NCBI GenBank assembly: GCA_964035015.1
Contig: OZ036005.1
Span: 13,653,968 to 13,717,967, forward strand
Source: Corallium rubrum
Taxonomy: Eukaryota > Cnidaria > Anthozoa > Scleralcyonacea > Coralliidae
Reading direction: 5' to 3'
DNA length: 64,000 nt
Under the pieces are notes generated by a model, which had not been told where the DNA came from, made no database searches, and saw nothing but the letters and a program-made list of their open reading frames with translations. Both the position numbers and the translations under genes were made by a program. Below, piece by piece: positions 3,978 to 59,855 of this stretch. Positions within the stretch are counted from its first letter, which is position 1. Each line of letters begins with the position of its first letter.

Positions 3978-32101
<28,124 letters not shown>

Positions 32102-44300: not shown

Positions 44301-47300
44301 TTATTATCCAAATGGCTTTGACAACTTCGTGGGAAAACAGCGAATTTTGAAAGAACGCGAGAAAACTGTAAAACGGCAAAATTTCAGCGAGCGACATTTA
44401 TAAAGTTTTAAAATATTGCTCAACGACGTATATGAAATACAGTTTAAAACAGTAGGCAAAACATACATAAACTTGTGAACACAGTATTTTGAATCAGTAA
44501 ATGAGACTATATAGAAGTATATATAAAAAAAAACATACCACGAGAAGACAGAAAAGCTGAAACCATTTGATATACTATTGCTGTCATTCTTCTGTTTTCC
44601 AACTATACTCAATAAAACCGCTACAAGTCTTTACCCTTTAGTCAAATATTTTCCACATGCCAACCTCATCGTGTCATGTCTTTGAAAAACGTTACAAATG
44701 GTTTATTACAAGCATTTTCGTCTTCAAACTCCAACGACCCACTTTCGACTTCCATGCAGTCAGCCAGTATTGAAAGCGATTTTCCAAGCGAACAGCCAAA
44801 AACGAGCAAGCGACGAAGAAGAACGACGAAGAATCTTTATCAACTAAACTTTAAAAACACTAGGACTACATTCTGACTTCCCTTCGTAACTAGATCTTCA
44901 AGTTTTGACTGTTTTTTTATCACAAAAGAGGTTCCAAGCTTCCCAGTCAGACTGCATGTCGGCTGGCAGTTGCCTACTGTCGAGCGATAAACTTTGGACT
45001 TTTGAATATCACGTGAATGTCACCTCGATTACGCAATTCAATTATGTTAATTTACCTAATTATGTAAATTATCAATCGTACGATTAATAAAAAACATAAA
45101 TATGTTATTTACCGTTTTGGTCGGTCCATCTAGAGAAATATTTCCCTCGGTCTCGGGAAATATTTCTCTATACGGACCTCCCAGCCGGTAAATAACATAT
45201 ATTTCTTTTTCCCAAGCTAACGGAGTTCACATGGCAATGTGATTGTAAGTATAGGTAATAGCATGGTTTCGAGTGCAATTTGGAAAAAACATGCACGAGT
45301 GAGTTTTTCTCGTGAGATTTTCACGAGTGACTATCAAAATTGCACGAGTCCGAAGGACGAGTGCTATTTGAGGTCTTTGAAAAACTCATGAGCCCGTGTT
45401 TTTTGAAAATTGCACTCGAAACCATGCTATTACTTATTAATAATTATACATGACAATATTAGACAAAATGTTCTTCCAGCTACGAAGTTACATACCACCC
45501 ATTGCTCCACTTCTCGAAACTTTAATGGTTGAAAACTGCTTCATTTTGTTCACTAAATACGTCAAACGTCTTTACTCATAGCATCTAGCCTCTTCTTGTA
45601 GGAACTTTTATGACAATATTAAAGCAAAGTTCACTCTGTATTTCATCGAAATGTTCTTCGACAACTTTATGTTTTGGTCGCCATATTGGATTTTGTCGTG
45701 AATGAAAAACCATCCTTCAAAATCCGCATAGGCATTTCATTGGCTTTCCAGTAGTTTCTGGTTGTTTATTAGCCAATCAGAATGCTTAATACTCATTGAA
45801 ATTTGCACTGTATTTCATTTTTCTGCACTGTATTACATTGAAATTGCACTCCTCTCGACCAATCAGGATGCAGTAATTTTGTCATGTATATTTTTATGTA
45901 AATAACTGATAATTTTTGTTGTTTCTTTTGAATTTTTCAGATTCTGTTAAAGAACAGAGCACCCGAGACAAATAATTCTTATCAGACTTCAGATAGACTT
46001 AAATTTAATTCTTCTGTGCCTTTGCCAGAGGTATAAAATTTCAGTATCTTTTATAATATGTACCTTCTTGCACCTTCTTGCATCTTTTTGTACCTCTTCG
46101 CACCTTCTTGTACCTTCTTGCCCCTTCTTGTACCTTCTTGTACGTTCTTGCACCTTCTTGTACCTTCATGTGCCTCCTTACACCTTCTTGTACCTTCTTG
46201 CACCTCCTTGCACCTCCTTGCACCTCCTTGCGCTTTCTTGCATCTTTTTGTACCTCTTCACACCTTCTTGTACCTCCTTGCACCTTCTTGTGCCTTCTTG
46301 TACATTCTTCCACCTTCTTGTACGTCCTTGCACCTTCTTGCACCTCCTTGTACCTTCTTGTACTTTCTTGCACCTTCTTGTATCTTCATGTACCTCCTTA
46401 CACCTTCTTGTACCTTCTTGTACCTTCTTGCACCTCCTTGCACCTTCTTCCATCTTTTTGAACCTCTTCGCACCTTCTTGTACCTTCTTGTACCTTCTTG
46501 CATCTTCTTGTACCTTCTTGTACCTCCTTGCACCTTCTTGTACTTTCTTGCCCCTTCTTGTATCTTCATGTACCTCCTTGTACCTTCTTCCACCTTCTTG
46601 TACGTTCTTGCACCTTCTTGCACCTCCTTGCACCTTCTTGTACTTTCTTGCATCTTTTTGTATCTTCATGTACCTCCTTACACCTTCTTGTACCTTCTTG
46701 TACCTTCTTGTACCTTCTTGTACCTTCGTGCACCTCGTTGTACCTTCTTGTACATTCTTCCACCTTCTTGTACGTTCTTGTACCTCCTTACACCTTCTTG
46801 TACCTTCTTGCACCTTCTTGCACCTCCTTGCACCTTCTTGTACTTTCTTGCATCTTTTTGTATCTTCATGTACCTCCTTACACCTTCTTGTACCTTCTTG
46901 TACCTTCTTGTACCTTCTTGTACCTTCGTGTACCTCCTTACACCTTCTTGTACCTTCGTGCACCTCCTTGTACCTTCTTGTACATTCTTGCACCTTCTTG
47001 TACTTCCTTGCACCTTCTTGTATCTTCATGTAGCTCCTTACACCTTCTTGTACCTTCTTGCACCTCCTTGCACCTCCTTGCACCTACCTTTTTGTACCTC
47101 ATTGTATCTCCTTGCATCCTGACCATCCTTTCCTTACCATCTATTTCGCAGAGCGAGCTCGGAACTTGGACGGAAGATAACGACGCGTGGAACGAAATTT
47201 CTGATAAAGAGATAGAATGGGAAACCCAGAATGTGTTGAAAGAAAAGAGAATGGCTGAGAGGGAAAGACGGGCACTGGAGCAACAGAAGAAGAAGGAGGA

Positions 47301-47361
47301 AAGAGATGCCATAAGAGCGACGAAAAAGACAGCCGGAAATTTAGGAATTAAGATTAGCTAA
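35267..47361 (+). CDS. EBAG9: EBAG9/RCAS1 orthologue (four exons, complete)
   Basis: Exons 35267-35452, 40962-41114, 45941-46030 and 47152-47361 join in phase 0 into a predicted 212-aa protein; the human protein has 213. EBAG9 is a Golgi-associated tail protein that in mammals restrains regulated secretion. The N-terminus has a basic/hydrophobic segment (FRQLFSWLFVLINLIKRCIC, about residues 15-34) that fits the membrane anchor. The middle has APWDEW and SIKVE. The C-terminus has LGTWTEDNDAW followed by a highly charged coiled coil (RMAERERRALEQQKKKEERD) and ends IKIS, as in vertebrate EBAG9 (VKLS). The start at 35267 gives the expected length. All introns are GT-AG and carry mobile elements. 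The gene is head to head with KIF13. Confidence 0.93.
35792..36733. mobile_element. 942-bp hAT-like non-autonomous element
   Basis: Perfect 18-bp inverted ends (CCAGACTGCAAAGTTTGC) and perfect 8-bp duplication TACAGTGG (35784-35791, 36734-36741). Subterminal GCCCGCGCAA motifs recur near both ends. No transposase frame. In EBAG9 intron 1. Confidence 0.9.
36742..39045. other. EBAG9 intron 1, middle part
   Basis: Holds a G run at 37360-37380, a poly-C run at about 37853, a tandem unit at 37981-38092 (TTTTTTCCTATAGGAATTTC, three to four times) and, at about 38698-38850, an uninterrupted copy of the repeat that is split at 4495-5045. No exon recognised. Confidence 0.5.
39046..40373. mobile_element. 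1.3-kb element with repeated GTTGCGGACGTTACA termini
   Basis: Starts TTCGTTGCGGACGTTACA and ends TGTAACGTCCGCAACGAA, exact complements. The motif occurs four times in one orientation on the left (39048, 39220, 39405, 39428) and four times inverted on the right (40155-40372). Includes a LINE 3' tail at 39830-39911 and a telomere-like CCTAATCCTAACCCTAACC at about 39559. No transposase recognised. Confidence 0.7.
39830..39911 (+). repeat. Non-LTR retrotransposon 3' tail
   Basis: CTCTGGCTCGGATGTAAGGG, then CTTTAATAAATTGTATTGTA with tandem TATTG, the usual LINE 3' terminus with a short repeat tail. Confidence 0.6.
40962..41114 (+). CDS. EBAG9: EBAG9 exon 2
   Basis: 51 codons: GEDLAPWDEWGQS, ISIKVEPSTPTSEQ and DLFGDMQPVFQKPKK, parallel to W..WDED.P.SVKIE and DYFKDM.P...K in vertebrates. 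Confidence 0.95.
41224..41269 (+). ncRNA. Minimal type I hammerhead ribozyme
   Basis: All core elements are present in order. Stem I: ACTACA with TGTAGT. Conserved CTGATGA at 41230. Stem II: GGCC/GGCC closed by CGAAA. Then GAAA and a very short self-complementary stem III, ACGGTACCGT. The predicted self-cleavage is after C41263 (GTC). The tiny stem III is the mark of retroelement hammerheads (Penelope-like elements and retrozymes), which probably act as dimers. It sits in EBAG9 intron 2 in sense orientation, 110 bases after exon 2, followed by an (AT)n run. Confidence 0.9.
41270..41330. repeat. (AT)n microsatellite
   Basis: About 30 AT units directly after the hammerhead. Confidence 0.97.
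41424..42006. mobile_element. 583-bp inverted-repeat element
   Basis: Arms of about 210 bases (GGATGCGTTTATTTAC, CTTCAAGTTTCTG, CTTCAGAAAGTTTGTAGTGA, ACACTTTGTGAATAATTAAA) are inverted between 41424-41640 and 41815-42006. Inner GGTTCGATT...TAATGC units are tandem. Confidence 0.8.
42007..43626. other. EBAG9 intron 2 stretch, nothing coding recognised
   Basis: Contains a GC-rich CTCCGG/CCGGAG low-complexity patch at 42620-42725 and a 137-aa minus frame at 43169-43582 with no recognised domain. Confidence 0.35.
43627..43822. repeat. GTGGCCG-CTTAATAGAGG repeat
   Basis: GGCCGTTTAATA, GGCCGCTTAATAGAG and AAGTGGCCGTTTAATAAAAG recur five times in 190 bases. Confidence 0.65.
43944..44010 (+). repeat. 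Degenerate tRNA-like sequence
   Basis: A-box-like TATAGCTCATCGGTTAGAG and B-box-like GCAGATTCAAACTCTG at tRNA spacing, but the stems are decayed. Likely a SINE relic. Confidence 0.35.
44011..45098. other. Intron stretch with small inverted repeats
   Basis: GCGGTCCGTATC..GATACGGACCGC at 44125-44163 is a short inverted pair. Frames at 44028-44297, 44304-44612 and 44676-44876 carry no recognised domain. Confidence 0.35.
45099..45203. mobile_element. Hairpin MITE (ATGTTATTTACCG)
   Basis: ATATGTTATTTACCG and CGGTAAATAACATAT, plus GAGAAATATTTCCC/GGGAAATATTTCTC, form a near-continuous palindrome. Confidence 0.8.
45250..45432. mobile_element. Hairpin MITE (ATAGCATGGTTTCGAGTGCA)
   Basis: GTAATAGCATGGTTTCGAGT and ACTCGAAACCATGCTATTAC are exact complements, with partly paired CACGAGT blocks inside. 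An outer TACATGAC../..GTCATGTA pair (45446, 45883) suggests it sits within an older element. Confidence 0.8.
45941..46030 (+). CDS. EBAG9: EBAG9 exon 3
   Basis: 30 codons, ILLKNRAPETNNS then LKFNSSVPLPE. Excellent acceptor (TTTTTCAG) and donor GTATAA. The donor is followed within 25 bases by the decamer minisatellite. Confidence 0.93.
46058..47113. repeat. Decamer minisatellite (TACCTTCTTG)n in EBAG9 intron 3
   Basis: About 105 copies of a 10-bp unit TACCTTCTTG with C/T variants (CACCTCCTTG, TACTTTCTTG). Higher-order patterns of 100-200 bp recur. Because the unit is not a multiple of three, all frames on plus repeat every 30 bp (CTFLYLLAPS-like) and are open for hundreds of codons; minus frames (YKKVQEGARR) likewise. 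These are artefacts, not genes. Confidence 0.96.
47152..47361 (+). CDS. EBAG9: EBAG9 exon 4
   Basis: 69 codons plus stop: SELGTWTEDNDAWNEI, then EIEWETQNVLKEKRM and the coiled coil. The acceptor TTTCGCAG lies 36 bases beyond the last repeat units. Confidence 0.95.
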   Translation, partial: SELGTWTEDNDAWNEISDKEIEWETQNVLKEKRMAERERRALEQQKKKEERDAIRATKKTAGNLGIKIS

Positions 47362-47635
47362 GAACCGAAATCAATTTTAAAATTTAGAATTTAGTGTGCG
47401 GGTTGGTTTCTTGCTGTATGTTTTCTTGGAAAGCCAAGGAAATTTGAGTTCTCGCAACCATAGTCTATTGAGAGATGGTCTGCGAACTCATCAAAAGTCT
47501 TTGTTCTATCTTTTTGTTTACGTTCATGCAAACTTGTGCACGGTGAAGACAATTTGTTTTTGGTTTAATGAAGCAATCATCCAATAGCAGTGTTTAGGCT
47601 CAATCACTCATCCGTGTTATTGAACAAATTAATAT
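47362..47635. other. EBAG9 3' flank
   Basis: Presumed 3' untranslated region. No canonical AATAAA polyadenylation signal is obvious in the first 200 bases. Confidence 0.35.
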
Positions 47636-47843
47636 TTGCACCTAAGTGGAAACACCGCCGTCAAAACATGTTCAAAAGTTAACTGTTTTGAAATTGACAC
47701 CGTGTGATTGGTAAGACGTGATTGGCTGAGGGCACAAACATGTACGTATCGAAGGGAAACTTAATATGTTTGCAAGGAAAACTTTTATGTTTGACGTTGA
47801 AATAGAACATGTTTTGACGGGCGGTGTTTCCACTTACGTGCAA
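47636..47843. mobile_element. 208-bp MITE next to EBAG9
   Basis: TTGCACCTAAGTGGAAACAC and GTGTTTCCACTTACGTGCAA, extending through CGCC.GTCAAAACATGTTC, are inverted ends of about 38 bases. Confidence 0.8.
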
Positions 47844-47949
47844 ACGACTGTAAGCAAAAAACAAAAGGTTTGTGGAGATCGTACCGTCGCAACATAAAAT
47901 CACAGCTTATATTATAGGCGCTTTGAAGTTTGCCGAGTTTCTATACATT

Positions 47950-47975
47950 ACCGTAGAGTTCCTAAAGTGGCGGCC
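47950..47975 (+). repeat. Transposon left terminal inverted repeat
   Basis: Begins ACCGTAGAGTTCC. It contains one copy, inverted, of the subterminal CCG.TACTTT motif. Confidence 0.8.
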
Positions 47976-48012
47976 TCCGTTTACCTTACTTTCGGATACA
48001 CGCCCACCAGGG

Positions 48013-48256
48013 CCCGCTACTTTCGTGTAGCCGTTACTTTCGGGTAGCCTTTACTTGTGGGTAGCCGTTACTTTCGGGTAGCCGTTACTTTCGGGTACTT
48101 TCGGGTAACCGTTACTTTTTTGGAGCCGTTACTCTCAGGGAGCCGTTACTTTCGGGGAGCCGTTACTTTCGCGGGGAGCCGTTACTTTCGGGGAGCCGTT
48201 ACTTTCGGGGAGCCGTTACTTTCTGGGGGCGTTACTTTCGGGGAGCCGTTACTTTT
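48013..48256 (+). repeat. Left subterminal array (GCCGTTACTTTCGGGGA)
   Basis: About 13 units of 14-20 bases, GCCGTTACTTTCGGGGA or GGTA variants, all on plus. Confidence 0.9.
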
Positions 48257-48257
48257 T

Positions 48258-48371
48258 TAGCCTGCTGATACAGACCTCCCGCGTGGGGGTCTCGCAAACC
48301 GAATCCCCCCAGAGGAAGGTCTGCTTCTCAGGCGGCAAAATTCCGTACTGATGACGTAGCCGTGACAGAAT
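48258..48371 (+). repeat. Left 114-bp inner inverted repeat / likely helicase promoter
   Basis: Starts TAGCCTGCTGATACAGACC and ends GATGACGTAGCCGTGACAGAAT. It appears identical, inverted, to 59252-59365. It ends 75 bases before the helicase start and holds a CRE-like TGACGTAG site, so it may serve as promoter. Confidence 0.85.
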
Positions 48372-48446
48372 CTCTTCACGGCATGCGATTGGATAATCCA
48401 TATAATTAAATATAATTAATTAAAATTGTAAGTCACATTCAAAACA

Positions 48447-50387
48447 ATGGAAGACGACGTACTTGCTTCATGCCACGATCTTTCTTTGGCAGTTTTTGAG
48501 GAGTGTATACAAACTTTGTGTCCTAAGTTTAATATAAGTACTTTGACAGATCATCAGTTTAAATCGCTCTATAATTTTGTTTGTGGCAACGATGTTTTTG
48601 TCAGCTTACCAACAGGTTCTGGAAAATCGATGGTGTTTTATATGGCGCCCATTGTGTGTTCCTGGTTGGCATCAAAATATATTTCTTCTAATAATCTCTG
48701 GATTCTGGATGGAATTATAATTATCATAAGCCCGTTGACATCCCTAATGGAAGATCAAGTTACAAAGCTTCGACTCTTGGGATTTAAAGCGGCTTCTGTA
48801 AGTGGAACTCAAGACGAACGGCTGTTAACCGATGTGGAAGATGGCAAGTTCACGTACGTATTTTTATCACCCGAGTCAGCACTAGAATCAGAGCGATGGC
48901 GTTCTATGCTGACAAGTGAAACATATTCGCAGCGACTTATTGGCATTGCAGTGGACGAAGTGCATTGCGTAATTGCATGGGGTCTTTCGAATTCGAATGC
49001 TAATAAGACTGCCTTTCGACGATGGTTTAGCAGATTAAATGAAATTAGATCTCTAGTAAGAAAAGGATTGAACTTCTTAGCTTTAACAGCAACAGCCAGC
49101 AGGACAACAAGGGAGAAAATTTTCGAACTTTTAGAGCTGGACTCTCCAAAAGTTATAACAGAAAGTCCAAATAAAGAGAACATCCGCTACTCAGTTGACA
49201 AGTTGGACAGGAATGTTAAAATAATCGAAAACTTCCGCGGGCTTATCACAGAAATTAAAAGCAAAGGTAAGAATGCAACTAGATGTATAATTTATTGCCA
49301 GACGATCAAGCAGTGCTCAATTTTGTATCGGTCATTTGAATATGAACTTGGTCAGTCAATGTACTGTAGCGACGACAGAGATCCAAGAAAACGGCTGGTC
49401 GATATGATGCACTCTGGGAGCCCAGAGAGTGTAAAGGCACATGTCCTCAATCAATTTTCTAGTCCGGATTCTCATTTAAGGATCTTAATTGCAACTATTG
49501 CGTACGGTATGGGAGTGGATTGCAAAGGGGTTAATAGAATAATTCACTTTGGACCTCCCAAAACAGTCGAAGCTTACCTGCAAGAAAGTGGACGATGTGG
49601 TAGAAAAGGAGAACCAAGTGATGCAATATTGTTGTATGACAATATAACAATTAGAGCTGCTGATGATAACATGAGAGAATATATCAAAGGAAATTCTTGC
49701 CGCAGAAATATAATCCTTAAACATTTTGACAGTCCAACAACATCCTCGGTTTCTGTGAAACACCGTTGCTGTGATGTTTGTCTTACAGAATGCAAATGTA
49801 ACAATGGTTCTTGTGATGAACAATTATTCTCATTAGGTGCATATGGCCTAACTGCACTGAATAAAGATATTATCATGCTAACAACACGAACGATTACTGA
49901 AGACCAAATGACATTGTTGAATGATAAATTAGTTAAATACTGCAAGAAGCTAATGATGAAATGCTTGGTTGGAAACCAGCCACATAAAGTCAATGTTATT
50001 TCATCACCAACTGTACTATTGGAATTTGGCAGTGAACATATCAAGCAAATAATTGAAAACGCTGAATCTATTTTTAGCCTGCAAGACATATACAGGTGTG
50101 TTGACATATGGCAGAGTAAACATGCTATAGCTGTGTTGGATATATTTCAAAGCATATTTAATGATACAGAACAACCTACCATGGCAACCATGTCCAGCTC
50201 TTATGAAGATAATACTGATGAAGATGAAGTTGATGAATGGGAAGAACTGGTAAATGACTCTTCATTTATTGATCTGTTAGATCAGCCTGAATGGCAGTTA
50301 GATTCTTTCTCTTTAAACATTCAAGACATCAGTATGAACAACTCTGCATACCCATCTTTTTTAGATAATATTCTAACTAACATTTAA
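48447..50387 (+). CDS. RecQ-like superfamily II DNA helicase (transposon-encoded)
   Basis: A 646-aa single-exon frame. SF2 motifs in order: I VSLPTGSGKSMVFY (about 52-65), Ia SPLTSLMEDQ (95-104), II DEVH (170-173), III ALTATASRT (212-220), IV CIIYCQT (280-286), V ILIATIAYGMGVD (346-358), VI QESGRCGRKG (379-388). A cysteine cluster follows (HRCCDVC...CKCNNGSC, about 435-460), the place of the RecQ zinc subdomain. It departs from cellular RecQ by DEVH for DEAH and QESGRCGRKG for QE.GRAGRDG, and lacks HRDC and an obvious winged helix. The acidic tail (EDNTDEDEVDEWEE) is distinctive. It begins 75 bp inside the inner inverted repeat and converges on the DUF6589 gene. Role inferred: unwinding during transposition or repair of the excision site. 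Confidence 0.93.
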   Translation: MEDDVLASCHDLSLAVFEECIQTLCPKFNISTLTDHQFKSLYNFVCGNDVFVSLPTGSGKSMVFYMAPIVCSWLASKYISSNNLWILDGIIIIISPLTSLMEDQVTKLRLLGFKAASVSGTQDERLLTDVEDGKFTYVFLSPESALESERWRSMLTSETYSQRLIGIAVDEVHCVIAWGLSNSNANKTAFRRWFSRLNEIRSLVRKGLNFLALTATASRTTREKIFELLELDSPKVITESPNKENIRYSVDKLDRNVKIIENFRGLITEIKSKGKNATRCIIYCQTIKQCSILYRSFEYELGQSMYCSDDRDPRKRLVDMMHSGSPESVKAHVLNQFSSPDSHLRILIATIAYGMGVDCKGVNRIIHFGPPKTVEAYLQESGRCGRKGEPSDAILLYDNITIRAADDNMREYIKGNSCRRNIILKHFDSPTTSSVSVKHRCCDVCLTECKCNNGSCDEQLFSLGAYGLTALNKDIIMLTTRTITEDQMTLLNDKLVKYCKKLMMKCLVGNQPHKVNVISSPTVLLEFGSEHIKQIIENAESIFSLQDIYRCVDIWQSKHAIAVLDIFQSIFNDTEQPTMATMSSSYEDNTDEDEVDEWEELVNDSSFIDLLDQPEWQLDSFSLNIQDISMNNSAYPSFLDNILTNI

Positions 50388-51823
50388 TGCTGTTTAAATT
50401 ACCAGTATACCATTCCTACAGAGACTGGCCCCAACCTGCCCCTTCCCTCTGCAGGACAAAATCATCTAGCACTAGCCAGAATAAAATAGTCTGGTAGTAG
50501 CCAGAATAAAATAATGAAAGCTTTCTTTAATAGGCAGGAATGGATTAAGGATATACATGTATATTTTAACCCATTCCTGCTGAGGCCAGCCTCAAACAGC
50601 CCGTTCCCTCTCTAGTGTCAGCCAGACTAAAATAATAAAGATGGTCGTAGGTAGGAATGGGTTAAGTTATATAATACATATGCAATGGAAATGTACAACC
50701 TAATTGCAATATTTTCAAGTATCTTTAAGTTTTAATGACATTTATACTAGTGGGTGGGCATGGAAGAAAGTAATGTTATGGAATTGAAATATAATTTATT
50801 AATTAACCCATTAAAATCTTATGGTCTCTCTTTGACAAGTAAAATTGTATAGTGTTATACAGAGTGAAAAATAGTCTGGGGTTATACAGAGCAAATTAAT
50901 AAGAGTTGTTTTTGCTGGTTCAGTTGTTTATGGGTTAATATATTATATAGTACATGTGCACATATACATTAGATATATTAAAGGCTATGTTACATGGTGG
51001 CACAGCGCAATTTTTCATGCAACTTGTCTTGTAACACCAACACTGTTTCAACATTGCAAGACAAGTTACACAGACCATTGTACTGTGTAACATTCCTTGC
51101 AATGGACAAGATAATTGAAAGACAAGTTGCAGGAATCATTGAAAAAGTATAATTCAATTCAACATTCTATAATGATTGATGCAACTTATCTTACAATGAC
51201 TTGACTATTGCATTGCATGGTTCATGCAAATTACATAACAAGGTATGCTGATGCCATTGCAACACAAGTCGCATAAAAATTGCACTGTGTACTGTATATA
51301 ATATGGTCTTAACCCATTCACGATGGAATGTCAGACAAAGTAAAATCATCTAGTGTTAGACATAGTAAATAATTAATAAAAGAATATTTTTGGCTGGTTC
51401 AGCTGTCAATTTTTTAAAAATATTAAAACAAAATATATCCAACTGAAAACAATTGATTATTAATCCTTTACTAATCTTTTTTTTACCAAGTGTTTTACTA
51501 TGGATAATTCTATACAATTTTATTCGTCAGTACAGGCCTCCTGGGCTATTAATGGTTAATACAATTTGACATTATTATTACAAATGCTTTCAAATAACTG
51601 CTAAATATTTCATTCACTTTGTTGAAATATTTAAAGGCCCTTATCAGATAATTTCTGATGCAGTCACTGATAAATATTCGCTTAATATCAGCCACATAAA
51701 GCAAGCATTTTAATAAACTGGGCTAATTTAAATGTTAATATATTCTTAAAGCACCAGTAATATTGAGTTTGCTATTCGTGAAATGAAGTTATCTGTATTA
51801 CTATGTCAACTCATTCAACACTT
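50388..51823. other. Spacer between convergent transposon genes
   Basis: Contains two copies of a GTTCCCTCT/ATGGGTTAA-type repeat (50425-50570, 50575-50665) and, at about 50985-51300, a repeat with GCACAGCGCAATTTTT and AAAAATTGCACTGTG inverted ends and CAACTTGTCTTG motifs. No gene seen. Confidence 0.5.
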
Positions 51824-52604
51824 TCATCTTGCTTTGCGTCCAATCATCATTTTATATTTGTGCTGATTAACCCATTTACATAAAGCATTCATGTTCAACT
51901 TCTTGAGAGAAGACCTCGGAACTTTTGCAAAATGCTTGTAACTTCTTCCTGGAATGTTCTCCATTGCTTTCTCTTCAAAGAGACTTTCAACAAGTGTTGC
52001 CAGATCTTTTTTGGTTTTCTTAGCAAAATGTTCTCCAGATCTTTTCATCACGCAGCATTCTCTGGAAGTCTGGTCAATCATGCCTTTTGCCATGTTCACC
52101 ATTTTCCCTGCTCTCTTGACGGTGGTGGTTGTGAGGTTGGGTCCCATCTTGCGAACTGCCTCTTTAAGAAGATTGTTATTGTGCTCAAGTTCAATATCTA
52201 AGGGGACATTCTTTCCATTATGCCCATGATTATTACAACTTCGGTTCCAGCGTTGTCTGTAGGCTTCTCTTGGTGTTAACAATGCTTGCTGCTGAAACTG
52301 TAAGTACAGTGCTTCCAGGCTATACTTACTGCTGCCAGAATCTGCATAAAAATGTAACAAAAAGAATTTCCAGCATCTCATCAGTCTGTTTCCATCACCC
52401 TCTGATATAGCATCATTGAAATTCATGAACAGTAATGCATGATCCATCAAATTACATTGATAATTTCGAACATCATCTGACTCATGACATTCATCAGTAG
52501 AGCGAAGTGTAGGGGTACTCCCATTAGTACTGGTTGGTTCTAGATCATCTACAACTAACGCATGTACATTCTTTTCATGCGTTATTCTATGCTTGCCATC
52601 AAAT
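51824..52604 (-). CDS. DUF6589 gene exon 8 (C-terminus)
   Basis: 781 bp ending at a stop at 51824. Contains the rest of the finger, an acidic linker and EGDGNRLMRCWKF, YSLEALYLQFQQQALLTPRE, NVPLDIELEHNNNLLKEAVR. The acceptor chosen is CAATAG. Confidence 0.87.
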
Positions 52605-54666
52605 CTATTGACATTATAAAATTCTAAATGTCAGAGACACATCTGTACTATGATTATTTATATGACAAATGAATGTAAACTTAATAAATTTTATGGGTAA
52701 AAAGATGGTGAAATAGCTAAAATGAAATAGATTTGCACTTTGTCTGAGTATCTTTCATTAAAAGTATGGTTCATCAGAATATTTCATTAGAATACAGTCT
52801 ATATCAGAGTACACCATGTTATAGATTTATTCTGCAACGAGGGACTTTTGTTTGAAGCTTTTTTTAATAATATGGCAGTCTATTATTAACCAATAAAAAA
52901 TGCATATGTAATATACTGCCCATACAACAAGTGTACAAAAAATAAGACACCGGAGTGTGCTGGGAAGTTTATATATTATGCTTACCTAAATGTTTTATCA
53001 CACCCAGGGAACCGACATGGAAACCGGCCATCAACAGTCATTCTAGCTTTACAAGCTTGTTCGCACTCTTGATTGTGAAGTGTTGCATCCACAATATCTG
53101 CATACATGTTGGTATCCATAACATAATCATCGACAACCCTTTAAGCAATACAAAAATCTTTGTTTGGTCATTAAATTAATGGATTGTTGCAAGGTTACCC
53201 ACCATCATATAGATATTATTATACATTTAAGTTTTAACGTATTGGCAACAACCCAGCTGAAAGCCTGAAACTAAATAAAAGCAAGATATGTTACTAGAAT
53301 AAAATTATAACACTTGGATTGGGATGAAAGGGTGGATTTTTCTTAAAAGGAAAACTGGTTAAACTTTTTGCTGTGATGTACATACATGTAGTTACCTTGA
53401 AGCAATTTGGTTGATATACTTGATCTTGTCATTCCTGTTTCTTCTAGACATGTCAGCTGGAAATGGATATTTAGTGGGTAGTTTATCATCAATTGTTCTT
53501 AAACCAATGAACATTGCAGCAGCAGCTATAACTCTTGCTTTTACTGCAAGTAAAAGCATTTGTTTATTTGCATCATATGCATGGTGTGTATCATTCTTTA
53601 CATTTCTTCGGTTGATAAGATTTCTATCTGCAAATAGGGTACATTTATCACTGGCTGCTGATGCTGAATACAATCTCGTATATAACAACTAAAAAATGAA
53701 GATTTTGCAACATTGATTAAAAGAATAAAATTTAATTGAATACAAATTAATTGAAACTGTTTAATCAGCATTGGTGGCTGTATAACATTCACATATTTAT
53801 AGTTCAGTCTCAAATCTCAAACACTGAAATTGAACATTTTTCTGAATTAATCTGAAAAACTATCACTCATATTAACATTCATGTCCGTATTGTATACTTG
53901 TATGAGATATCACAAGCTCTCAAATTTAGCTCTACTTTGTATATCTGAAGGTACAACAAGGTCACTCATATTGTAAATAGAAGTATATCAAGGTTATTGT
54001 ACTGCCAAAACAACGAATGTAGGTATAGTAAACATTTGGAGTGAAGGCCGGCCTTTATCAGTGAAATATAGTCATGTGGCAAAACATGCAATCGGAGTAT
54101 AAAAACAAACTAGTATTCATTAGTTTAGTTTAATGAATTTGTCACAAAATCTGTTTAAAAAAATTATTACAAAATTATTAACTAGTGAATACCGAAAGAT
54201 TTAAAAATTCCTTTGTAAATAGGTTGATTTTTAAATATGAACTAGCTTTTAAGTAGTAGAATTTGCAACTTTTATTACCTTTATTTAATAATTGAACTTA
54301 GGGATATAATGTATGATAGTTTTTATATAGAATTTGTAACGCATGATTTGTATTTAACCATTGTGAATAAAGAGAATTTGAATTTGAATTAACTTTACTG
54401 TGTGACAGGAGAGAAACAGAACTTTTATCCCAATTGAAATCAAGCCCCCTGATAATATTATCTTATATAATATTAAAAAATAATATGATTGTGTGTCACT
54501 TTCATCCTTAATGCCAGGGGATAAGACCATGGGTATGATTTCCCAAAGGATTGTGCTAGTATAATATAATATAATATAATAATATAATATAATATAATAA
54601 TATAATATAATATAATATAATATAATATAATATAATATAATATAATATAATATAATAATAATAATA

Positions 54667-54707
<41 letters not shown>

Positions 54708-57700
54708 TAATATAATAATAATATAATAATAATAATATATAAATAATTAAATAACATAATAATAATTTAATAATATCCCATTACTCATTTGTTTTTGTTT
54801 TCTGGTTCGGACTGGCTATTTTTTTATCATATGAGTATTTTTAACACACAACTTCACTTTCTTTCTTTTTTGGCTTCATATCTCTTTCTGACATAATATG
54901 GTATTTGCTCAAAACGGTAGACCTCTACATTCAAATGATTCAATGTTTCTGCAATACAATAACATTGCTATATTTCGATTCAAATTTCAAGACTGCCTAT
55001 GCAGCACGCTACTATTATTCAACAGTTTTTTTAGCAGTACCTTACTGTATATTCATTCAAGGCCGTGTTCAAGGTAAAAACTTACATGTGACTAACAATA
55101 GTGAACAACTTCAACAATTCAACACTAACATATTATATAACAGTCCATTTGTACCAAGGAGCTACATACCTAACATAAGGTTAATCTTGGCTGGGGTATA
55201 CATTACTGTAATAAATCTTTCAAACCCTTTTTGATAGTATCAATTAAAATTTAAACCACCTTTTTGTAAACATATACTGTACTGTATAGTAATACAAAGT
55301 ATATCTTACATCCAAAAACTTCACACTTGTATGCCAATCTGCAATCTCAACATGGAGGCCTTCCAGACGTTCTTCTTTGTTAAACCCATTGGAAAGGGAT
55401 AATAGAGAGTTAACTGCTCTTTCAACTGTCAACTGGTCACCCACAATGCCAGTTTCAGAAAAGTGAAAGCATTCTGTTTTGTCACACCAACGTGGCACAT
55501 ATGAATGAAGTGTGTGTAACACTTCCAGCATTCCATCTGCAGTATTTTCATTTTGAAAAATGATGCCAAGACTTTCCTATGTGACAGAGTTTAAAAAAAA
55601 CACCTTACCATTCGAGTATTTGAGAGAGGGATGTTAATACCCAAAAGTCCCTCAATAAGGAGGGACCAACTTATTTTTGATGAGAGGGTTTGGTAAATAC
55701 TAAAAAAAAACAAGCACAACTGTCAAAAGAGAAAAATTGGAGCAAGCTCAGTACATCTTTATATTTGGGGACAAAATTCTTGCAGAGGAATGACATGAGA
55801 GAAGGGGAGTTTAGTATGATTTTCATGGGTTTGGATGAAATTTCTATAAATAACATGTACAGGTATGACACCATGAGTGCAAGAGGTTAGCCCATTAAAG
55901 CCCTAATCAAATGAGAATGCAAGGCAAGTCATCGCAAGTTAGCTTACAATGAATTGCGATGCCACCAGTTCTGCACTTCCACTACTTCCCATGCTCTTTC
56001 ACTAGTTCTCATGGTAGTTTTTATGGTGACAGGGCACAAAAGACTTCATCGGCTTGTGTTCTGTGTTCAGACATTTCACGAGCTCTCGCAAGTTAAAGCA
56101 AAACTTGCAATGAAATTTGAACAAGATCAAATTAGTCACAAGCCAATGCAAGTAACCGCAAGTCAGTGAAAGCTGGTGGTCAAATGAGACACAAGCAAGC
56201 ACAAGCTAAAACTTGCAATGACTTGTGTTCTCGTTTGATCAGGGCTTAAAAGCCCAGTCAGGCAGAAGACCGGGTTCCCCTATTATCCATTTCCATGAGC
56301 GTGGAAGGTACCTATGCCACCCAGGGTACATGTACAGCACAATACAAAATTAAATCACCATGCAATGGCTGACAGGGACATTTGAGTGTCCCTGGCACAC
56401 CAGGTTATACAATAAAAGTATCTGCTGATACAGTACCCCTTTGCAAAACACTCCATGATCACCTTCAGTTTATTCATTATAACAGTGTAATAAAGACACA
56501 GATAGGACAATTTATAAAAAAACCCGTAAGTTTATACCTTTTCTGATTTTAAGCTCATTTCATTTGAATGTGGATGTATGATATTCTGAGCAACAACATC
56601 TTTACAGAACTCAAGATAAGGTACTTCATTTACAAGAATTCTTTTGATCATAAAGATATAATCCTGCTTCTGAAAAGTGTGGTCAGCCAAACTTGGGATC
56701 ACCTTACTATTATCAAGATCTGCCAGGTTGGATAATATTGGCTTGTCATCATTTAAATTATTTCCTGACACTCTGTTAGTGACCTTCATGTGATTAACCC
56801 AGTGATAGTCTTTGTTCTGGTCATCCTGGGTCATATCCCTCACTTTTTGATTTAAATCAAAGTTGTCAAATACAAGTTTGTAACCAGGACCAATGTTACA
56901 AGATTTTTCTGCAGGCTCTAAAAAACAAAAATTACATGCATTTTAATACAAGAAGAAATAAAGAATTATTTAAATATACATTAAAGTCATAGCAGAAAGC
57001 AGAGCAAATATACATACAGTACTTGAAAATGAGAAAAATAAACACTTATTATGGAATGAAGTTTGAACTTATTGAGAATTATCAAATTGATGAGGTTTGT
57101 GTTATCTGCTTATGGTTGAGGCTATAACACAATTAGTCAAGGTGATGATTCTCAACCAGGCATAACCTTTAAAATAATTGATTTATTATATAGAAAACTT
57201 AATCTTTTTTAGAAATCATTTACAAAATGGCCCCAAACAGTAAAATAATATTTTATGGTCATTTTCACACCAAGCATGAACTACGTTCATTTCATTACTG
57301 ATTAGTATAAGAAACTGTCTTGATAAACTGAGTATAAAAACACCTTTAGTGCTCACAAACAAATCAACAAGAATAGACTGTGATGGCTAAAACATAAGGG
57401 CACAGTTAACTGACTATCACAAGCTGAATTCTAAATTGATTAATGCATTGTACAAGTATTTATATCAACTACTAAAATACAGGTAAGCTAACTGCCAGTA
57501 ATAGTAACAAGCTTACCAGATCTAGCAGAATTATTTGGACAGTTAGGGTTTCCACCACTGTGTAGTTTAGATAGTGCATCTTCTTCAGCCTGTTTATACT
57601 GCAACAATCGTTCATTGTAGACTTTACCAAATTCATCACATTTCTTGTTGAAGTACGAAGGAGATACACCAATTTTGTACTTGGAGAGAAAATTGCACAA

Positions 57701-59200
57701 TGACTAGGAAGAGTATAAGTAGCTCAGTGTTAATGTATTAGTCAAATCCAAGGGTTAGACCAGAGGGTGGGATGGACACATTCAGATTTGACTGATACAT
57801 AATGAGATTTATCATTAAAAAATACATCAACCCTTTGCTTACCAACAGCTTCCCTCCAGAGGTGTAGCCAGAAGGGGGCTTCATATGCCTCAGTTAAGCT
57901 GCCCCCCAGGTTTTTCCTGGCCCCCCTTTCCTGGATACACCTCTGCTTCCCTCTGCAGAACAAAATTGTTTGGCATCAGCCCAGCTCACAACTATAAAGA
58001 CTCAAGAGTCCCATTGGAAACAAAGGGTTAAAAGACAATTTACTTTTTTAGATGTACTGACCTGAAAACCATTATATTTCATCAAAATCGTCATCAATAT
58101 CTGCACTGCAGTCATGAATTTACTTCTTTCCTTCAATAAAATAGATGCTGCTACAGCCACACTTGGTAGCCACTGGGCGTTGGTCTTGTTTCCTTTTGGG
58201 ATAGCACAAGTAACAAGAACTGAATATAAAAAGGGGGCTTTTTCTTTCAACTCCAGACAAACATCCTTTAATGATAATTTTCTCATATCAGTCACAGACG
58301 TTTTTCGTAAAATCGAAGGATTTGCTGTAGACACCATACCCGAACATTCCTTAGATATTTCCTTCAAAGAACACTTCAAAAGTTCAATTTTTAAATTTTT
58401 AACTTTAAAAGCTGCTCGGGCAATATCTTGCCAAGTACCACGAAGTAATGCCTTGCCTAATGGTTCCAGGTCATGCACTAGTTTTCTTTGTTTTGTCTGG
58501 GAAGGCCAATTCACAACAATCTGAAAAATACAAAGGAGAGAGAAGAAATATATTAAACATTAATACATGTAAAGAATAAAGAAAAAATACAATCTAATAT
58601 TTACAGTAAGTCTTAATAAAATATTAAATGACAAAACGAAAAGGCATTACTACAAATATTATATATGGCAAGTTGCCTAACCTTGACTGCAACGTCAGAC
58701 TTGGAGGAAGTAATAGGGACCACACGTTCTTGTTGTACTGGAGATAACCAAGGAGATTCATGCGAAAAAGGAACAGGTTTAAGAACTCGACGAGTTGGGG
58801 TACTTTGTCTTGGTTGCATACAGTTGTTTGTCTGTTCTATTAACTCGGACGATTCTGCCGAACGAAATCTCTTCGCTGATACCTCTTCCTCTTCGTCTAA
58901 TCTTGATTCTGATCGTATGAGGTTATTGCTTTGAATCAACAGCTCATTTTCGATACTTTTCAGGTTCGTGGCAGCTTTTTCCCTCCTTTCAAATAACCTT
59001 TTACATAGGCGACAACAGAAAAATAACTCGTCTCCTTTAAGTATGTCGGCGATATTTATCTTATATAAATCAAGCAACACCTGCGGCAACTCGAGGATAA
59101 TCTTACTGATAATATTGTTCTTTTGTTTGTGAATATAATATCTTTCTCTTGCCAAAACGTCTTTGTCGCATAATATGCAAATCGATCTTAACATTGTCAA
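51824..59200 (-). CDS. Zinc-finger DUF6589-type protein, probable transposase (8 exons)
   Basis: Exons 59200-58682, 58520-58062, 57703-57517, 56917-56538, 55576-55310, 53688-53396, 53138-52986 and 52604-51824 join in phase with GT-AG junctions into 1012 aa. The N-terminus has paired CxxC motifs (C8/C11, C63/C66) about 50 residues apart, as in ZAD-type zinc fingers. The middle has NIGPGYKLVFDNFDLNQKVR and DYHWVNHM, then ETGIVGDQLTVERAVN and GLHVEIADWHTSVKFLD. A C2H2-like finger (FPCRFPGCDKTF...H..TH) precedes the C-terminal EGDGNRLMRCWKFFLLHFYA and ELEHNNNLLKEAVRKMGPN. I recognise this set as the DUF6589 family abundant in cnidarian and fungal mobile elements. Conserved D residues (FDNFD, GDQLT, IADWH) are candidate catalytic acids. 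No frameshift is visible. The transposase role is inferred from context. Confidence 0.82.
52986..53138 (-). CDS. DUF6589 gene exon 7 (zinc finger start)
   Basis: 153 bp, DYVMDTNMYADIVDATLHNQ to RFPCRFPGCDKTF. The two cysteines are completed by H..TH in the next exon. Confidence 0.82.
53396..53688 (-). CDS. DUF6589 gene exon 6
   Basis: 293 bp, CTLFADRNLINRRNVKND to KIKYINQIASR. Phase 0 in, 2 out, donor GTAACT. Confidence 0.82.
54340..54395 (+). repeat. LINE 3' tail in a transposon intron
   Basis: GTGAATAAAGAGAATTTGAA with tandem TTTGAA, the usual end of a truncated non-LTR insertion. Confidence 0.5.
54559..54762. repeat. (TAATA)n / (TAA)n microsatellite
   Basis: About 200 bases of TAATA and TAA units. 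The Ile/Tyr-rich frame in it is an artefact. Confidence 0.97.
55310..55576 (-). CDS. DUF6589 gene exon 5
   Basis: 267 bp, 89 codons, phase 0: TGIVGDQLTVERAVNSLLSL and EERLEGLHVEIADWHTSVKF, the most conserved block of the family. Confidence 0.88.
55895..56249. mobile_element. MITE nested in the transposon
   Basis: TTAAAGCCCTAATCAAATGA and TCGTTTGATCAGGGCTTAA inverted ends, with GCAAGT/ACTTGC motifs inside. It lies in the intron between DUF6589 exons 4 and 5. Confidence 0.7.
56538..56917 (-). CDS. DUF6589 gene exon 4
   Basis: 380 bp, GPGYKLVFDNFDLNQKVRDM to MSLKSEK. The FDN.D and HWVNHM motifs are typical of the family. Confidence 0.85.
57517..57703 (-). CDS. DUF6589 gene exon 3
   Basis: 187 bp, SLCNFLSKYKIGVSPSYFNK then FGKVYNERLLQYKQAEEDAL. 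Phase 0 in, 1 out, donor GTAAGC. Confidence 0.85.
57856..57946. repeat. Small inverted-end repeat
   Basis: AGAGGTGTAGCCAGAAGGGG and CCTTTCCTGGATACACCTCT flank a 50-bp centre in a transposon intron. Confidence 0.55.
58062..58520 (-). CDS. DUF6589 gene exon 2
   Basis: 153 codons, phase 0. Contains IVVNWPSQTKQRKLVHDLE, RGTWQDIARAAFKVKNLK and the hydrophobic PFLYSVLVTCAIP region. The donor is GTCAGT. Confidence 0.85.
58682..59200 (-). CDS. DUF6589 gene exon 1 (N-terminal zinc motif)
   Basis: 173 codons. RSICILCDKDV and FFCCRLCKRLFERREK carry the paired CxxC. A serine/acidic linker follows. It starts 51 bases inside the right inner inverted repeat. The donor is GTTAGG. Confidence 0.8.
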
Positions 59201-59251
59201 TCACATCGCCGCCATTTTTGGCTGTTAATTTATATTGCAGGCCGGAAATTA

Positions 59252-59365
59252 ATTCTGTCACGGCTACGTCATCAGTACGGAATTTTGCCGCCTGAGAAGC
59301 AGACCTTCCTCTGGGGGGATTCGGTTTGCGAGACCCCCACGCGGGAGGTCTGTATCAGCAGGCTA
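59252..59365 (-). repeat. Right 114-bp inner inverted repeat / likely DUF6589 promoter
   Basis: Appears identical, inverted, to 48258-48371. Its inner edge is 51 bases from the start codon at 59200. Confidence 0.85.
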
Positions 59366-59606
59366 TTACTTTTTGGGAGCCGTTACTTTCGAGGAGCGCC
59401 GTTACTTTTTGGGAGCCGTTACTTTCGGGGAGCACCGTTACTTTTTGGGAGCCGTTACTTTCGGGGAGCGCCGTTACTTTCGGGGGACGTTACTTTCGGG
59501 GAGCCGTTACTCTCGGGGAGCCATTACTCTCGGGGAGCCGTTACTTTTTGGGAGCCGTTACTTTCGGGGAGGGCGTTACTTTAGGGGAGCCGTTACTTTC
59601 GGGTAG
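59366..59606 (+). repeat. Right subterminal array (GCCGTTACTTTCGGGGA)
   Basis: About 13 units on plus, the same orientation as the left array. Variants GGAGCGCCGTTAC and ACTTTTTGGGAGCC are alternated. Confidence 0.9.
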
Positions 59607-59826
59607 CAAAAAAGTGTTGGTATGGTTGCTAGATATTTGATATATTCATGGTAGGACATGGAATTTGAACTGTGTATTTAAAACCTTACATTACATACAT
59701 GCACATGTTTATATACTGTTGTTCCAGAGGCTCTCAGGGTTTGTGGCAAGATGAATCCGTTACTGTTTGTAAGCATCTTATTCATATACGTTATATCGGT
59801 TAAATCGTAGGCATTGCTTTCGGGGG

Positions 59827-59852
59827 GACCGCTACTTTGGGAACTCTGCGGT
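59827..59852 (-). repeat. Transposon right terminal inverted repeat
   Basis: Ends GGGAACTCTGCGGT, complementary to the left end with four differences, followed by ATT. Confidence 0.8.
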
Positions 59853-59855
59853 ATT

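Follow-up and report, generated by a model that had tools for sequence, protein, structure and literature searches.

A probable AcademH-type DNA transposon, apparently intact and recently inserted into an earlier non-coding element of Corallium rubrum

We analyzed a 64,000-nucleotide stretch of the Corallium rubrum genome (hereafter the window; GenBank assembly GCA_964035015.1, contig OZ036005.1, positions 13,653,968 to 13,717,967 of the forward strand) that contains a RecQ-type helicase gene next to a DUF6589 transposase gene. The element that carries them is very probably a recently inserted, apparently intact DNA transposon of the AcademH type, assigned by the described features of AcademH and not by named family sequences, and we regard it as a well-supported new member of that lineage with corrected boundaries. 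The window holds two nested repeats, an 11,108-bp coding transposon inside a 786-bp non-coding host element (Table 1). The initial annotation, made from the sequence alone, had proposed a full-length 11.9-kb transposon (47950..59852) delimited by outer inverted repeats and a 3-bp ATT duplication. The outer repeats and the ATT exist, and the window copy does look intact, but these features are not the ends of the transposon (48258-59365), whose own duplication is the 9-bp TTACTTTTT, the ATT flanking the host element instead.

When the insert and one copy of TTACTTTTT are taken out, the host junction rejoins with its 17-bp spacing in phase, the restored unit being equal to the unit at 59536, and what is left is an element of 786 bp with 25-bp terminal inverted repeats (TIRs) and a 17-bp minisatellite core. 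The outer repeats and the ATT belong to this earlier element, which the transposon jumped into within its 17-bp array. The ATT on either side of the outer repeats carries little weight alone, because, of 300000 pairs of positions drawn at random from the window, 5795 show a 3-bp flank match. The 17-bp array also makes a chance 9-bp match commoner (853 of 58322 junctions between the array halves, versus 21 of 300000 random window pairs), and other copies were therefore needed to fix the ends.

A helicase search of the whole genome (474 Mb, 312 contigs) gave at least 73 matches, with 68 of 813 first-look candidates scored, and two of these matches besides the window copy came from its family, F1 (C57 and C102). 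The C57 copy, 98.7 to 99.9 percent identical, aligns over exactly 48258-59365, stops at both ends, and has its own duplication, GCAAGAAGC, on either side; its flanks had no BLAST match to the window flanks or to the host element. The C102 copy, flanked by ATCAGTACA and ATCAGTATA, retains both TIRs, one with a single difference (99 percent), and has positions 50037-53092 swapped for about 7.5 kb of other DNA. Other copies sharing the outer termini had been set beforehand as a test of the 11.9-kb proposal, and both C57 and C102 share the inner termini instead. It is hardly credible, then, that everything between the outer repeats is the transposon, with ATT as its duplication and the 114-bp repeats and 17-bp arrays as subterminal sequence: such a reading is in keeping with the 22 of 25 positions matching between the outer repeats and the ATT flanking both, whereas the two other copies match the window solely within the inner boundaries, the flanks compared (left and right for C57, left for C102) have no match to those of the window, and the 17-bp units share one orientation on both sides and are in phase. 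The correction indicates that nesting within a repeat can mimic a target duplication.

Searching the genome with the F1 TIR returned 15 matches, including the six ends of the window, C57, and C102 copies. The remaining matches were miniatures on C1 (141 bp), C32 (170 bp), and C15 (56 bp), all of them flanked by perfect 9-bp duplications, and two places where a single end was seen (C32:12505490 and C30). The 56-bp miniature (L051 from 1486; C15, near 7899887) is flanked by GCGACATTA, and its ends may be the shortest that suffice. The TIRs of a second family, F2, are perfect over 124 bp and also carry TAGCCTGC; both ends were read for two F2 copies, and each of these copies had a perfect duplication of 9 bp. 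Among the eight simple insertions with both ends read, the 9-bp duplication was perfect in seven and matched at 8 of 9 positions in the other, and the duplicated sequences had no fixed sequence, none being TTAA.

Between the window and C57 copies, we counted two substitutions in the helicase gene (no amino-acid changes), eight in the transposase exons (0.26 percent), a divergence of 0.67 percent in the introns, and none in the TIRs, as well as one single-base insertion in a homopolymer of the C57 transposase exons relative to the window copy. At least nine helicase families could be distinguished, several of them with copies that are about 99 percent identical (L007/L010, L011/L012, and L015-L017), and such near-identical copies in several families suggest repeated recent activity.

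The initial annotation had also placed the helicase and DUF6589 genes in one element, and this was borne out by the genome: among the first 30 helicase loci (window included, 1.5-kb flanks), the two genes stand tail to tail in 26. The four loci without a DUF6589 match are the disrupted C102 copy (L003), both loci of an inverted double element (L008 and L009), and L014, in which the helicase match is split and the retrieved flank ends about 0.5 kb past it. Given that the genes lie on opposite strands, roughly 1.4 kb apart, they might be two separate repeats that came to lie side by side by chance; this appears extremely improbable in view of a tail-to-tail pairing that recurs across families. 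Judging from these sequence comparisons, both genes form one mobile unit.

The inverted double element is a 6526-bp structure at C15:4496523-4503048 (L009 1325 to L008 3474) that has two F3 left ends in inverted orientation, both carrying a helicase gene, between TAGCCTGCG termini. Its flanks have AGACTACG (8 bp) in common, offset by one, with no 9-bp duplication in register.

The helicase gene was confirmed as the uninterrupted 646-amino acid open reading frame described initially. Its product matched the Pfam domains Helicase_C (3.7e-18), DEAD (1.9e-14), and RecQ_Zn_bind (1.6e-4, below the curated cut-off), and helicase motifs I, Ia, II, III, IV, V, and VI were located by pattern. The best sequence matches in the PDB were RecQ, WRN, and BLM, and a public protein cluster accounts for 644 of the 646 residues. 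A helicase tree comprising 49 rows, mostly unnamed, placed the window sequence among 22 rows that form a supported group and whose named members are Paramuricea and Acropora; this placement carries no information on AcademH membership.

The neighboring gene, first given as a 1012-amino acid DUF6589 gene, was confirmed as a spliced gene on the minus strand that encodes a DUF6589 protein, and we modeled it with eight exons and 1010 amino acids, splice sites being picked among several open solutions by open frame, GT/AG, and homology. The model matches PF20231 (DUF6589) at 3.5e-40 over profile positions 11-410 of 410, and the product aligns with cnidarian proteins. Blocks of tblastn similarity to F2 were interrupted at or near six of the seven model exon junctions and ran unbroken through the seventh (around residue 700); breaks near junctions are as should be expected if the protein is spliced. 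In a structure model of a DUF6589 relative, we observed the strand order of a ribonuclease H-like (RNase H-like) fold, with P element and Hermes transposases as the best structural matches (Foldseek E > 0.001). We infer that the DUF6589 protein belongs to the Asp-Asp-Glu (DDE) transposases with an RNase H fold, the proposed catalytic residues being D404, D560, and E891, that the insertion preceding the Glu holds a C2H2-like finger, and that the N terminus is zf-AD-like. In a sequence search of the PDB with the DUF6589 profile, the five chains returned were zinc-finger proteins without exception, the best at E 0.008, P element and Hermes not being among the matches at E <= 1; BFVD had no hit at E <= 0.001. 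Viral contigs scanned with the helicase, with transposase alignment A2, and with the TIR pattern contained no relative, and neither did genome contigs in one scan with alignment A3. The words DUF6589 and PF20231 occurred in none of the available papers. DUF6589 probably represents the Academ transposase.

The initial annotation had named Academ-like elements as the nearest group, which was the right neighborhood, given that the helicase-bearing lineage AcademH fits. AcademH was reportedly described by Kojima in 2020 as an Academ lineage of animals and fungi; its elements bear TIRs, and the nuclease of the other Academ lineage, AcademX, is of the XPG type. P element and hAT transposases, the latter including Hermes, generate 8-bp duplications and are not known to be accompanied by a helicase gene, and Helitrons are not known to have TIRs or a target duplication. 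The window element shares with AcademH a DEAD and Helicase_C helicase, TIRs, and 9-bp duplications, and its transposase may likewise be of the DDE type, to judge from the predicted fold; the terminal hairpin is a feature observed here. In PMC10045372, duplications of 9 or 10 bp are tied to the helicase of AcademH and those of 3 or 4 bp to the nuclease of AcademX, and PMC9587614 counts Academ among the DDD/E superfamilies. The window element fits AcademH because it combines a helicase with 9-bp duplications, and it fits neither AcademX nor Kolobok because these duplications are neither 3-4 bp long nor TTAA. No XPG domain turned up when both gene products were scanned against Pfam at E <= 1. PMC10799480 names PF00271 together with PF00270 for AcademH, KolobokH, and Helitron; the window element differs from Helitron in having TIRs and 9-bp duplications. 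KolobokH also joins a DDE transposase to a RecQ helicase, and Kolobok likewise gained such helicases, on the complementary strand in one rhodophyte element (PMC9587614). We nevertheless consider a KolobokH-like origin very improbable, given that Kolobok makes 4-bp TTAA duplications according to the same paper, whereas those read here are 9 bp without a fixed sequence (TTAA at 0 of 8 insertions), that the helicase here is a separate convergent gene, and that the transposase matches DUF6589.

The initial annotation had further suggested an excision or integration route unlike simple cut-and-paste, a suggestion that our results neither support nor contradict: ordinary DDE transposition would account for the perfect TIRs, the 9-bp duplications, and the predicted DDE fold. 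The ends of the element have a further property: the outermost 76 nt of the TIR in the window form an imperfect hairpin (81 nt folded as DNA, z score -3.44, 0 of 200 shuffles as good). For comparison across families, nine ends (F1 to F9) were picked by copy boundaries or by a TAGCCTG terminus, not by folding. The ends of F4, F7, F8, and F9 are defined by the TAGCCTG motif alone, a start present in 9 of 18 scanned loci, with the remaining nine left out, and F8 and F9 are alike, so that the nine ends are not fully independent. The best inverted repeat in the first 90 nt beat 60 of 60 shuffles in seven of these ends, F1 included, and folding energies also supported seven (z scores of -2.6 to -3.9). 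None of 18 inner control segments stood out (12 of 60 shuffles were as good for the best of them), and z scores of -1.10, 0.34, and 0.04 were obtained for three 100-nt segments from inside the window element. A core CAG(A/C)C / GTCTG was present in seven of nine ends; F5 and F6 have no such anchor and were left out of the arm count. At arm positions 6-14 of the seven anchored families, 38 of 63 positions matched their own partner; with every arm moved to another family, the count averaged 20.5 and never exceeded 29, and 3 of 5040 arm permutations, the true order included, reached 38. Complementarity has therefore been kept as the sequence changes between families.

One way to read these observations is that AcademH ends are recognized as folded single strands, the hairpin being a recognition or intermediate structure selected for pairing and not for sequence, and the RecQ helicase being carried for structured or single-stranded ends. 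We consider this unlikely, though worth pursuing, since it would imply a helicase-assisted DDE pathway distinct from plain double-strand cut-and-paste. Several results weigh against it. The F5 end (L018) is unremarkable (36 of 60 shuffles as good; z scores of -0.60 and -0.97 in two copies), and the inverted repeat of the F6 end beats 59 of 60 shuffles yet fails the energy test (z score -0.35). Additionally, the miniatures retain part of the F1 end only, so that an entire F1 hairpin is not a strict requirement. Every miniature forms an inverted repeat as a whole. Arm covariation would be expected equally if the terminal palindrome were an ordinary duplex site for a transposase dimer, with two equal half-sites keeping the arms complementary, and this explanation, towards which we lean slightly, also accommodates the shared core and the binding of Hermes-type transposases to repeated subterminal sites. 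Less easily reconciled with a rigid dimer site, which should tolerate them poorly, are the arm-to-arm span of 32 to 67 nt in the seven families and stems that contain bulges and mismatches. The variable span leans towards a hairpin without proving it.

In the mechanism that we propose, the transposon would have landed in the 17-bp array of the earlier 786-bp element after the DUF6589 transposase cut at the TAG/CTA ends, and the cut ends would have been joined across a 9-bp stagger. More speculatively, the RecQ helicase may open or resolve structured ends, or aid gap repair at the donor or target. It is also possible, if short of probable, that the helicase serves gap repair or copying after excision, thereby raising copy number, and is not needed at the ends; its relatives WRN and BLM function in recombination repair, and the lack of amino-acid changes between the two helicase copies is compatible with this role. 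Why a DDE transposon carries a RecQ helicase is a question that this genome makes testable, as it contains an element that looks intact, another copy with about 99 percent identity to it, miniatures down to 56 bp, and at least nine helicase families with comparable ends. Which cis sequences are sufficient, whether the helicase is needed, and how important the terminal hairpin is can all be asked here.

Table 1. Coordinates of the transposon, its genes, and its host element within the window.
Feature	Position	Strand	Remarks
Probable AcademH-type DNA transposon	48258..59365		11108 bp, ends 5'-TAGCCTGC...GCAGGCTA-3'; from TIR edges and C57 copy ends
Left TIR, 114 bp	48258..48371	+	Equal to right TIR and to both C57 TIRs (no difference)
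Right TIR, 114 bp	59252..59365	-	Perfect inverted match to left TIR
Imperfect terminal hairpin/palindrome in left TIR	48260..48333	+	Mirrored at 59290-59363 (identical TIRs)
Target-site duplication TTACTTTTT, perfect 9 bp	48249..48257 (left copy), 59366..59374 (right copy)
RecQ-type helicase gene	48447..50387	+	646 amino acids, single exon, uninterrupted; Pfam, motif patterns, PDB
DUF6589 transposase gene	51824..59194	-	8 exons, 1010 amino acids (model)
Transposase exon 1	58682..59194	-
Transposase exon 2	58062..58520	-
Transposase exon 3	57517..57703	-
Transposase exon 4	56538..56917	-	Proposed first catalytic Asp, residue 404
Transposase exon 5	55310..55576	-	GDQ motif; proposed second Asp, residue 560
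Transposase exon 6	53396..53688	-
Transposase exon 7	52986..53138	-
Transposase exon 8	51824..52604	-	C2H2-like finger completed; proposed catalytic Glu, residue 891
Outer TIR of host element, not the transposon's	47949..47973, 59829..59853	+ / -	22/25 positions match
Host element 17-bp tandem array, left half	48014..48255	+
Host element 17-bp tandem array, right half	59366..59607	+	Orientation as in left half

Directly left of the host element, at 47635-47844, lies an element of about 210 bp that resembles a miniature inverted-repeat transposable element and has 25-bp inverted repeats at 96 percent. A C-terminal coding piece at 47200-47361 on the plus strand may resemble EBAG9/RCAS1, and a Pfam scan of the frame that holds it gave no match. 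The window also has long tandem arrays of short units at 7845-8889, 16415-16856, 20868-21128, and 46059-47085, the units being (CAAG)n in about 200 copies, (TCTG)n, (CTCA)n, and a 10-bp unit in about 103 copies.

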